From: Allosediminivita pacifica | GTDB lineage: Bacteria; Pseudomonadota; Alphaproteobacteria; Rhodobacterales; Rhodobacteraceae | DNA length: 64,000 nt | NCBI RefSeq assembly: GCF_003054175.1 | Contig: NZ_QBKN01000006.1 | Span: 1-64,000 of the forward strand | Reading direction: 5' to 3' | Shown here: in pieces, positions 22,533-48,916 of the stretch | Layout of the letters: each line of letters begins with the position of its first letter | Position numbering within the stretch: the stretch's first letter is position 1 | Notes under the pieces: generated by a model | What the model saw: the letters and a program-made list of their open reading frames with translations, nothing else | What the model was told of the DNA's origin: nothing | Databases searched by the model: none | Program-made: the position numbers and the translations under genes

Positions 22533-22844
22533 ATGATCATCTACGGGTTGAAGACCTGCGACACTTGCCGCAAGGCGCGCAAGGCGCTGCCGGAGGCCGA
22601 TTTCGTCGACATCCGCGAGGCAGGCCTGCCCGAGGGGCTGCCGGAGCGCGCGCAGAAGCGATTCGGAGACAAGATCCTGAACACGCGCTCGACCACCTGG
22701 AGGGGGCTGTCGGAGGACGAACGGGCGGGCGATCCGCTGACGCTGATCGCGGCGCATCCGGCGCTGATGAAGCGCCCGCTGATCGTCGATGGCGACGAGA
22801 TGCACCTGGGCTGGGACAAGACGGTTCAGGCGGCGCTGACCTGA
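22533..22844 (+). CDS. ArsC/Spx family thioredoxin-fold protein (YffB-like)
   Basis: A 103-aa protein of the arsenate-reductase-related family. It has a CxxC at Cys9 and Cys12 (LKTCDTCRKA), RSTTWRGLS in the middle and IAAHPALMKRPLIVDG near the end. The CxxC and the short length fit the YffB/Spx-like group, many of whose members are glutathione-dependent reductases rather than true arsenate reductases. No ars genes are nearby. It overlaps the 3' end of the DoxX gene by 19 bases. Confidence 0.85.
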   Translation: MIIYGLKTCDTCRKARKALPEADFVDIREAGLPEGLPERAQKRFGDKILNTRSTTWRGLSEDERAGDPLTLIAAHPALMKRPLIVDGDEMHLGWDKTVQAALT

Positions 22845-23392
22845 GGAGCCGGGCGGCGGAAGAGCAGCGCGTCGAGCGACAGCCAGCCGCCGCCCTTCAG
22901 CACCAGCGTGACCATTGCCAGCATCCAGAAGGCGCGCTGGTCGAGGATCAGCCCGTCCGGAAGGCCGTCGAACCAGGCCCCCAGGGTGCCCTCGTGGGCG
23001 ATGCCGCCGTGGCCGTAGAGATCCGTGAGGCTCTGCACCACGACGAAGCCGATCATGGCAAGCGCGGCGAGCCGGGTCAGAAGCCCCAGAACGATGAGCG
23101 TGGGCAACACGAACTCGGCCAGCGTGCCCGCGACCACGACGGCCCAGTGGAGGGGGCCGAGCTGCGAGACATCGTAACCTGCGGCCTCCATGGCGCGGGG
23201 AAATATCTGCGCGTAGGCGCCGAGCGAGGGCTGGAATATCCCCAGCGGCCCGTCGCCGAGCTTGGTTGCCGCCGCGCGCCAGAAGTAGACAAGCAGCGTT
23301 CCCGCAAAGACGAGGCGCGCGAGCAGCGGCAGGAGGCCCGCGGTCCTGGTTTCGAGCGGCTCCCCGAGGCGGGCGTAGCGGGCGATCGTCAT
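22826..23392 (-). CDS. bufD: DoxX family membrane protein of the bufferin operon
   Basis: A 188-aa inner-membrane protein with four predicted helices (about 20-40, 82-103, 105-123 and 150-170). The pattern LVFAGTLLVYFWRAA...LGPLHW, then LAEFVLPTLIVLGLLTRLAAL, is typical of DoxX. The ATG overlaps the stop of the preceding DUF2063 gene as ATGA, so translation is coupled. In gold- and copper-induced operons of this type the DoxX member is the last gene (called gigT or bufD); its role, perhaps quinone-linked redox or membrane support, is not established. Confidence 0.83.
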   Translation of the reverse strand: MTIARYARLGEPLETRTAGLLPLLARLVFAGTLLVYFWRAAATKLGDGPLGIFQPSLGAYAQIFPRAMEAAGYDVSQLGPLHWAVVVAGTLAEFVLPTLIVLGLLTRLAALAMIGFVVVQSLTDLYGHGGIAHEGTLGAWFDGLPDGLILDQRAFWMLAMVTLVLKGGGWLSLDALLFRRPAPQVSAA

Positions 23393-24222
23393 CGGCGTGT
23401 CTCCTTGGGGGCGGCCAGCGCGCCCTCGCGCAGCAGCAGGGTCAGGGTTTCGGCGGCATCCGCGTCGGCTGCGGCGATGGCGGCACCGAGCGGGGCGCTT
23501 TCGGCGAAGGCTGCCACCATGGCGGCGCCGCCGGGGGGTAGCAGGTGCGCGTCCGGGTCGAAGCCGGGGCGGGTGATCAGCACGTCCTCAGCCCGCGCAG
23601 CGGGGCGGGGGCTGCCGGGCTGCATGGCGAAACGGTAGACCGAAAACACCGGCCAGGCGGATCGCAACAGCGCGGCGGCGGGTACGAGCGACAGGCAGGT
23701 ATCCTCGTGCAGCCCCGCCAGCGTCTCGGGCCCAATCGGCGTGGCGTCGGCGGCGTGGTAGGCGTGGCGCAGGGCCAGCTCCAGCCGCGCCACGTCGGGC
23801 AGGTAGCCGAGGCGGCCGGGGGGCAGCCGCGTGGCGAGGAACTCCGGGAAGCCCGCGCCGTAGCGCTGCATGACGGGGGCGGCGGGGTGATGTTCCTGCA
23901 GGAAAGCCCGCGCGAGCCCGTCGAAGTTCGCGGGTCCAAGCAACCGCGCCACCGCGGGGAAGCCGCTCTCCAGCGCCTCGCGCAGGCCCACGGCCACGTT
24001 GTTGCGGTAGACGTCGAAACGCCGCCCGGCGGGCCGCCCCGCGCCGTCGGTCAGACCCGGCGGCACGCCGGACCCGGACGCCAGCCGCGCGCGGAAGGCC
24101 CGCTCGGAGGGCGACAGGCCCCCTGCTTCTTCTTGGTCCAAATATTCCGGGGGAGCCGCCCGCAGGGCGGTGGGGGCAGAGCCCCCTTCTTCCGTCAGGG
24201 GCAGGCGCGCGTCCGAACTCAT
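23389..24222 (-). CDS. bufC: DUF2063 (BufC/HvfC-like) partner of the MNIO enzyme
   Basis: A 277-aa soluble protein. The family signature is [30 protein letters not shown], followed by [22 protein letters not shown] and [19 protein letters not shown], all present. In characterised systems it binds the peptide precursor and helps the DUF692 enzyme. The start ATG 24222 overlaps the bufB stop as ATGA. The first 45 residues are unusual: instead of starting at the ARLASG segment they contain a stretch translated from a dispersed noncoding repeat (24126-24186) inserted in frame. The core domain is intact. Confidence 0.85.
24126..24186 (+). repeat. Dispersed repeat inside the 5' end of bufC
   Basis: The pattern is CTTCTTCTTGG, then AAATATTCC, a G-run, CCGCAGG and GGGGCAGAGCCCC. 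The last part forms a small hairpin. A second copy lies at 45677-45736 and a fragment at 48859-48880. Here it lies within the coding frame of bufC on the other strand. Confidence 0.6.
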
Positions 24223-25067
24223 GCGGGCACCCGGGCAAGCGCCCCTGCGGCGCGCAGGGCCTCGGCGCGCAGGACGGGCCAGTCGGGCACGTCGGTATCC
24301 CACTCGATCAAGAGCGGCCGGACGCCGCCGCGGTAGAGCACCCGGTCCAGAAGCGCCCAGACCGGATCGGCGACCTCGCGGCCGTGGCTGTCGATCAGCA
24401 GGGGGGCGCCGTGATCGTCGTGATCCTCGTCGTGCCCGCCGAGGTGGATCTCGCCGACGCGGTCGAGCGGGAAGGCGTCGATGTAGGCCTGCGGCGCGTA
24501 GCCGAGGTTGGTCGCCGAGACGAAGACGTTGTTCACGTCGAGCAGCAGCCTGCAGCCGGTGCGGCGGGCCACTTCTGAGAGGAAGGCGGGTTCCTCCCAG
24601 GTGCTTTCGGCGAAGGCGAGGTAGCTCGAGGGGTTCTCGAGCAGCATCTGGCGGCCGAGGGCCTCCTGCACCTGCTCCACGTGTTCACAGACGCGCGCCA
24701 GCGTGGCGTCGGTATAGGGCAGGGGCAGCAGGTCGTTGAGGAAAACGCCTTCGTGCGTCGACCAGGCGAGGTGCTCGGAAAAACTTGCCGGGGACAGCCA
24801 GCCCACGAGGTGCTTCAGCCGGGCGAGGTGGTCGGGGTCGAGCGGCTCGGGGCCCCCGATCGACAGGCCCACGCCGTGCACCGAGATCGGGAAGCGTTCG
24901 GCCAGCGCGCGGAGCTGCGCCAGCGGGCGGCCGCCGTCGCCCATGTAGTTCTCGGCGTGGATCTCGAGCCAGCCGACCGGGGCGGGGTCGTCCATGAGGT
25001 CGGCGAAATGGCGCGACTTGAAGCCGACGCCGGGCAGGGATGGCAGGGGGGATGCGTGATCGAACAT
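24219..25067 (-). CDS. bufB: DUF692/MNIO peptide-modifying oxidase
   Basis: A 282-aa TIM-barrel enzyme of the multinuclear non-heme iron oxidase (MNIO) family, which oxidises cysteines in precursor peptides. Metal-binding segments visible: [10 protein letters not shown] (33-42), [10 protein letters not shown], the SEHLAW motif, [27 protein letters not shown] and [11 protein letters not shown]. All expected His, Asp, Asn and Glu residues seem present. The gene follows the precursor bufA after a strong hairpin and overlaps bufC. By analogy it converts central cysteines of the precursor to thiooxazole-type rings; this is inference from family knowledge. Confidence 0.9.
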
Positions 25068-25088
25068 CGCGGGCGGTCCTCGCTTGGG

Positions 25089-25117
25089 GCCGGGCGGCGC
25101 GAAAGGCGCCGCCCGGC
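25089..25117 (-). other. Perfect 12-bp hairpin between bufA and bufB
   Basis: GCCGGGCGGCGC pairs fully with GCGCCGCCCGGC around a five-base loop, directly after the bufA stop (on the minus strand). There is no T-run. Such structures between a precursor or binding protein and its downstream genes often stabilise the upstream transcript, giving excess precursor. Confidence 0.65.
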
Positions 25118-25124
25118 GTCGGTG

Positions 25125-25445
25125 TCAGCCCTGCTCGGGCAGGTCGCGGTCGAGCGCCTCGAGGCTGCCCATGCGGTCGGAGCCGTCGGCCATCTGCGGC
25201 AGCTCGATGTCCATGCAGGTGCCTTCGTCGACCAGCGTCCAGGCGTTGCCCTGGTAGTCGACGGTGGAGGTGCCGGCGCATGTTGTGCCGGGACCGGCGG
25301 CGCAGTCGTTCTCGCCGGCGAGGCTGACGCCGTAGCATTTCTCCTGCGCCTGGGCGCTGGCGGGGGTGGCGTGACCGGCCAGCGCGGCGGCAACGGCACC
25401 GAGGATCGCGGCGGTCTTGAAGGGCGTGGAGGGCTTGGCGGACAT
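25125..25445 (-). CDS. bufA: DUF2282 bufferin-type RiPP precursor, exported
   Basis: A 106-aa small exported protein. A Sec signal peptide spans residues 1-31, ending in ATPASA. The mature part has four cysteines (37, 48, 56 and 77) in the order [22 protein letters not shown] and DEGTC, as in DUF2282 precursors of copper-binding bufferins and the gold-induced GigP. The C-terminal 25 residues are acidic and more variable. As first gene of the bufA-bufB-bufC-bufD operon it is the likely substrate of BufB. The mature product is expected to act in the periplasm as a metal buffer. Confidence 0.88.
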
Positions 25446-25533: not shown

Positions 25534-25566
25534 GAGCCACTCACGTGGGCGTGGCTCACACGTGTG
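25534..25566. promoter_or_regulatory. Inverted repeats upstream of bufA
   Basis: GAGCCAC (25534-25540) and GTGGCTC (25551-25557) are perfect arms ten bases apart, and a perfect CACACGTGTG palindrome adjoins at 25557-25566. They lie about 90-120 bases upstream of the bufA start in an otherwise empty 250-base gap. One or both may be an operator of the metal-responsive regulator. Confidence 0.4.
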
Positions 25567-25632
25567 TCAGCCTGTCGCAGGTATTCGGAAACGCAGATGA
25601 CTTCTCAAGTATCTGAAAACCTGAGTTTCGCG

Positions 25633-25663
25633 CAAAAGAAAACGCCCCGCCGGGGGCGGGGCG
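25633..25663 (-). terminator. Rho-independent terminator of thrS
   Basis: A nine-bp GC stem (CGCCCCGCC with GGCGGGGCG) is followed on the minus strand by TTTTCTTTTG, 35 bases after the thrS stop. Confidence 0.88.
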
Positions 25664-25697
25664 CTGTCAGAATGTTACCGATCCGGGGGCCGGATTG

Positions 25698-34375: not shown

Positions 34376-34750
34376 GCGCGGAGGGCCGGACGGCCGCTGC
34401 GGTGCAAGCCGCGGAGGAAAGTCCGGACTCACCGAAGTACCGGTGCCGGGTAACGCCCGGGCAGGGCAACCTGACGGAGAGCGCCACAGAAAACAGACTG
34501 CCTCCGGCCTGGCCGGGGGTGAGGGTGAAACGGTGGAGTAAGAGCCCACCGGGGCCCTGGCAACAGGGTCCGCATGGCAAGCCCCACCGGGAGCAATGCC
34601 GAATAGGGGTCTCGCGCGCCGCAAGGCGCAGGGCAGCTTCGGCCCGAGAGATCCGGGTTGGCAGCAGGAGCCGGCGGGCAACCGTCGGCCTCAGATGAAT
34701 GGTCGTCGCCCCGCAAGGGGTACAGAATCCGGCTTACAGGCCCTCCGCGC
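34376..34750 (+). ncRNA. rnpB: RNase P RNA, bacterial type A
   Basis: The catalytic RNA that matures tRNA 5' ends, about 375 nt. The first and last segments pair as helix P1 (GCGCGGAGGGCC at 34376-34387 with GGCCCTCCGCGC at 34739-34750). The conserved GAGGAAAGTCCGGACTC is at 34414-34430, with CCACAGAAAACA, GGTGAAACGGTGGAGTAAGA and the 3' conserved ACAGAATCCGGCTTACA in the expected order. Boundaries are set by the P1 ends and may be off by a few bases. It lies upstream of rpmG, so the two may share local transcription. Confidence 0.95.
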
Positions 34751-34792
34751 ATTTTCGGGCCAGTGATCGGGACAAGGGGGCCCGAATCCGCC

Positions 34793-45674: not shown

Positions 45675-45676
45675 GT

Positions 45677-45736
45677 TTCTTCTCGCCGGAAATACCTCGG
45701 GGTGAATTGGCCGCAGGCCAAGAGGGGCAGAGCCCC
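45677..45736 (+). repeat. Dispersed repeat, second copy
   Basis: TTTCTTCTCGCC, AAATACCTC, GGGGTGAATT, CCGCAGGCC and GGGGCAGAGCCCC occur in the same order as in the copy inside bufC. It sits in the convergent space between the cyclo-ligase and purD, where it could also act as a weak hairpin terminator. Confidence 0.6.
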
Positions 45737-45746
45737 TCCCGCAGCC

Positions 45747-48716: not shown

Positions 48717-48858
48717 TTTTTGGCGCGTGATCCGGCGGAGCGCGCCTTGCGGCGCGCGCTGTGTGAGCCGGCGCCGGCCTGCGGCCTTTGCCAGCGGCGC
48801 CCTTGGCGGGCGTGTCGCGTCAGGGCGGACGTCCCGCGCGGGGCGGGCGGCGGCGCGT

Positions 48859-48880
48859 GAGTATTTTTGCCAAGAAGAAG
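48859..48880 (-). repeat. Fragment of the dispersed repeat
   Basis: On the minus strand, CTTCTTCTTGGC followed by AAAAATACTC matches the first part of the copies at 24126 and 45677. The rest of the unit is absent, so this is a truncated copy. Confidence 0.5.
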
Positions 48881-48916
48881 CTGCTGGCGCGCGCCCGGTT
48901 CAGATCCGGTCGGGGT

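Follow-up and report, generated by a model that had tools for sequence, protein, structure and literature searches.

The definition of bufferin gene clusters includes a set of core genes (PMC12452194), and the 5-thiooxazole has been described as the product of clusters that combine an MNIO with a DUF2063 protein (PMC13097082). In bufferin 1 of Caulobacter vibrioides, a four-cysteine DUF2282 precursor with a Sec signal is encoded together with an MNIO, a DUF2063 protein, and a DoxX protein (PMC12452194). The gig (gold-induced gene) operons of Cupriavidus metallidurans and Legionella are bufferin clusters too, and can be likened by description to the locus reported here (PMC12452194). The TglHI system differs from the bufferins in that it makes a different modification, which is placed on a C-terminal cysteine (PMC12452194).

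The locus that we analyzed lies in a 64,000-nucleotide stretch of the genome of Allosediminivita pacifica (contig NZ_QBKN01000006.1, positions 1 to 64,000; hereafter the window). To our knowledge, no Buf1 member from the Rhodobacteraceae has been characterized experimentally. An earlier note on this DNA had claimed a bufferin-type operon of four genes in one direction at 22826-25445, and we found all four genes on the minus strand at these places: bufA (25125-25445), encoding a Buf1 (DUF2282) bufferin precursor of 106 residues; bufB (24219-25067), encoding an MNIO (DUF692) oxidase of 282 residues; bufC (23389-24222), encoding a DUF2063 partner protein of 277 residues counted from its ATGA start; and doxX (22826-23392), encoding a DoxX-family membrane protein of 188 residues. 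The note had also placed ATGA overlaps at 24219-24222 and 23389-23392 and cysteines at positions 37, 48, 56, and 77 of BufA, and direct reading agreed on every point. Profile searches accepted the products of bufA (PF10048, the DUF2282 profile; E=7.5e-24, 83.9 bits against a Pfam cut-off of 22.4) and bufB (PF05114, the DUF692 profile; E=1.2e-103, above the Pfam cut-off), as the note had anticipated, and likewise those of bufC (PF09836; E=6.1e-24, above the Pfam cut-off) and doxX (PF07681; E=9.5e-6, 26.6 bits against a cut-off of 23.6). The NCBIfam model MNIO_BufB also accepted BufB (372.9 bits, cut-off 310), and the NCBIfam HvfB model scored it under that model's cut-off. A Buf2 precursor (BufA2, with 6 or 12 cysteines) was ruled out, as BufA has four cysteines only and NF050166 gave it 17.7 bits against a cut-off of 60. 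MNIO and DUF2282 genes each occur once in the whole genome, and the buf operon is therefore its sole bufferin system.

The His, Glu, Asp, and Asn positions of BufB align with those of 3bww, TglH, and MbnB, and ten of its residues (His64, His99, Glu144, Asp177, Asn180, His208, His212, Asp226, His228, and Glu255) are invariant among 154 distinct BufB sequences of the family; by analogy with characterized relatives, some of these residues would bind iron. An AlphaFold2 model of BufC (mean pLDDT 86; low confidence for residues 1-30) matched TglI (8hci, 8hi7) and NGO1945 (3dee) over approximately 220-268 alignment columns, so that the predicted fold of BufC is that of the MNIO partner proteins.

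A BufB relative (E up to 1e-60) was present in 210 of 296 sampled family genomes, including those of Ruegeria, Pelagimonas, Thalassovita, Mameliella, Marivita, Roseovarius, and others, and the closest had 82% identity. A co-directional thrS gene lies just upstream in 77 of 80 loci, and 64 of the 80 have doxX after bufC, both counts being lower bounds because they depend on a crude gene finder. Because the same genes recur in the same order in approximately 170 loci, the structure of the operon is not due to chance, and by this criterion of gene order the buf operon is an old, fixed neighbor of thrS. Profiles, fold, and synteny all support the identity proposed in the note, and we conclude that this is a complete Buf1-type bufferin operon. 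That it is an ordinary Buf1 operon of the Rhodobacteraceae, inherited vertically, is an explanation that we hold, taken as a whole, to be highly probable.

Several features of individual loci were recorded alongside this survey. At its 3' end, doxX shares 19 nt (22826-22844) with a convergent small gene (22533-22844, plus strand), which we read as ArsC/Spx-like from its CxxC start; this small gene recurs near the buf operon in 15 relatives. One relative (L049) has two tandem bufA genes of differing sequence ahead of bufB. A Rhodobacteraceae-type buf operon with 82% BufB identity also occurs on a contig labeled Enemella evansiae (L156), by name an actinobacterium, and the assembly is probably mislabeled or mixed.

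Upstream of bufA we found a 35-bp tandem palindrome (25536-25570, minus strand) made up of two copies of TCACG-N4-CGTGA with centers 15 bp apart, which is a candidate buf operator. The copy in the window fits 22 of 25 consensus positions, and a pattern search of the whole genome allowing up to one mismatch returned the site upstream of bufA as the only match. Of 168 family loci, 161 (approximately 96%) reached a motif score of 17 of 25 or more (maximum for shuffled sequences, 16); the 168 include duplicates between collections and reduce to 133 when near-identical upstream regions are dropped. It lies mostly 100-140 bp upstream of bufA, and a weak TANNNT-like signal follows approximately 24 bp downstream of it. 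In 15 scorable loci from across the class, nearly all of them outside the family, the scores were 12-17, approximately the level of shuffled sequences. On the thrS side, a hairpin resembling an intrinsic terminator (25641-25665, minus strand; 11 pairs, 9 of them GC, then TTCTTTT) marks the end of thrS and separates the buf operon from it. The operon is probably transcribed from its own promoter, behind a tandem palindrome that is probably the operator of an activator; activation is preferred to repression because of the position of the motif. In this respect the locus is unlike that of C. vibrioides bufferin 1: it has a family-specific candidate operator and no sigma factor/NrsF pair adjoining the operon. 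No regulator gene recurred beside the operon in 80 loci. We tentatively propose, at somewhat less than even confidence, that the buf operon of the Rhodobacteraceae is under a dedicated, undescribed activator that would recognize the two 14-bp palindromes, unlike the sigma factor/NrsF control of other Buf1 operons.

The predicted pathway follows that of the characterized bufferins. BufA would be made with a Sec signal peptide (approximately residues 1-31), which we recognized by eye from Lys4 and Lys10, a hydrophobic stretch, and an ASA motif preceding Gln32, the presumed cleavage site; Ala31 is 99% conserved. In the cytoplasm, BufC (a DUF2063 domain with an RRE-like domain) would present BufA to the multi-iron oxidase BufB, which by analogy would turn the central Cys48 and Cys56 into 5-thiooxazoles. 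All 168 BufA sequences of relatives have four cysteines in the mature part, and the outer pair, Cys37 and Cys77, may form a disulfide once the peptide is exported. The mature peptide would then sequester excess copper in the periplasm, and DoxX would have an accessory role. The response to copper or gold is likewise one that would be expected from the bufferin family; it is unsupported by the local context, because the neighbors of the operon include neither a sigma factor/NrsF pair nor a recurrent regulator. A peptide that serves mainly against another stress (gold, mercury, oxidative, or sulfur) could be argued for, since bufferin operons include the gold-induced gig operons and since MerC fusions and DoxX suggest other stresses (PMC12452194), but the Buf1 products tested to date act in copper stress (PMC12452194), and we consider a main role other than copper unlikely, though it is the strongest of the alternatives.

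Two features of the proteins had been singled out in the note as unlike described members: the acidic tail of BufA and the N-terminus of BufC. Compared with C. vibrioides bufferin 1 by description rather than by alignment, the locus does have a longer acidic tail and a repeat-extended BufC, and the pair might mark a functionally distinct bufferin variant with altered substrate recognition or metal. The tail comprises 29 residues after Cys77, not the 25 reported in the note. In 168 family BufA sequences its median length is 27 residues and its median net acidic charge 4; Arg100, Asp101, and Pro103 are kept in 99-100%, and Gly93-Ser94-Leu95 in 91-97%, of 150 distinct sequences. Such conservation of the RDxP and GSL motifs suggests that the tail probably does something. 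It could be taken to favor a distinct variant, as could the greater length and acidity of the family tail relative to many alphaproteobacterial BufA proteins outside the family. The impression of a difference given in the note is understandable, but the tail is a clade trait found in essentially the whole family, and for this reason it is no evidence for a new variant; some relatives outside the family (L218, L211, and L227) also have a similar acidic tail.

The N-terminus of BufC is indeed altered. In an alignment with 29 relatives, BufC has an extra N-terminal stretch of approximately 35 residues that nearly all relatives lack. At the DNA level, 209 nt separate the bufB stop from the conserved YRNN motif, whereas 157 of 169 loci have 101-125 nt. 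Within this additional DNA is a single copy of a dispersed two-hairpin repeat (63 nt; 24125-24187, minus strand), which is read in frame as 20 residues of BufC. The longer start is best read as this repeat, inserted approximately 31 nt past the bufB stop and translated in frame, and so the BufC N-terminus too is no evidence for a new variant. In the model the extension is disordered, and it need not alter function. An in-frame TTG (Leu28; 24139-24141, minus strand) inside the repeat may serve as an alternative start. With the tail shared by the family and the extension accounted for by a repeat, a distinct variant appears decidedly improbable. Still less probable is an insertion that damaged or uncoupled bufC and left the operon decaying or low in BufC: the repeat does separate the conserved domain from the ATGA start, and the loop near residue 177 and the C-terminus are both shorter than in relatives, but the in-frame insertion leaves the bufC reading frame intact, the domain is complete and folds with high confidence in the model, bufA, bufB, and doxX are intact, and read-through is easy because at least two of the three sense frames are open in copies of the repeat.

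The repeat that extends BufC belongs to a family with at least 125 copies genome-wide, including those in the window at 24125-24187 (minus strand), 45675-45738 (minus strand), and 48822-48881 (plus strand). The window also carries an RNase P RNA of bacterial class A (34378-34752, plus strand). The repeat consists of a GGGGGC-TCT-GCCCCC hairpin and a second hairpin of variable sequence, followed by TCCCCCGGARTATTTNNRCCAAGAAGAAGC. A covariance model trained on 22 copies other than the one in bufC recovered the bufC copy at 76.7 bits (E=9e-18), and 43 of 61 family genomes contained copies with E up to 1e-5. Compensatory changes occur at all six pairs of helix 2 and exceed both shuffles and slid controls, although kinship among copies can inflate the shuffle control. 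The folding energy of the bufC copy was not unusual relative to shuffles (z=-0.4), and the structural claim for the repeat therefore rests on the covariation in helix 2.

We examined the genes flanking 30 copies, including the one in bufC, with gene calls that are rough. Thirteen copies lie between convergent genes and none between divergent genes, 24 have a gene pointing into the 5' side of the element, and no copy fell within a called gene. The bufC copy counts as outside genes here only because bufC, with a longest frame that overlaps bufB, went undetected by the gene finder. To the extent that rough gene calls allow, this distribution suggests a 3'-end or intercistronic element. Two known explanations were rejected. 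A REP element mobilized by a RAYT would involve a Y1 transposase, and PF01797 had no matches in the genome, with positive controls; a described Rfam family was also rejected, as the repeat had no match at gathering scores or up to E=1. We found no published description of the repeat among open-licence papers. Rickettsia palindromic elements are small dispersed hairpin repeats that are read within protein-coding frames. The enterobacterial RU repeats are also described as being read inside genes (PMC2759123). The bufC copy is likewise a small dispersed hairpin repeat in a coding frame; it differs from both in sequence and host, and also in that the other 29 copies examined all lie between called genes.

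The repeat was present at the same junction and in the same orientation in four relatives (L045, L046, L134, and L039), and degenerate look-alikes were spotted there by eye in two more (L079 and L139). In L045 and L134, bufC starts downstream of the repeat, and in L046, as in the window, the repeat is read through into bufC. An insertion hot spot at the junction need not be invoked, as approximately 3% of operons are affected (our own plus four, of 154 distinct), near the expectation for some 125 copies distributed among the gene ends of an estimated 4,500 genes. No second genome of Allosediminivita was found.

The operon itself is of an ordinary, known kind, and the features of this locus that most merit attention are its candidate operator and the family to which its repeat belongs. 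The apparent novelty in its proteins is a read-through repeat, which calls for caution when MNIO partner proteins are mined for new domains. In the Rhodobacteraceae, a major bacterial family, bufferins emerge as a trait that is common and vertically inherited, with a fixed address behind thrS, and the strongly conserved candidate operator makes what switches bufferins on a testable question.
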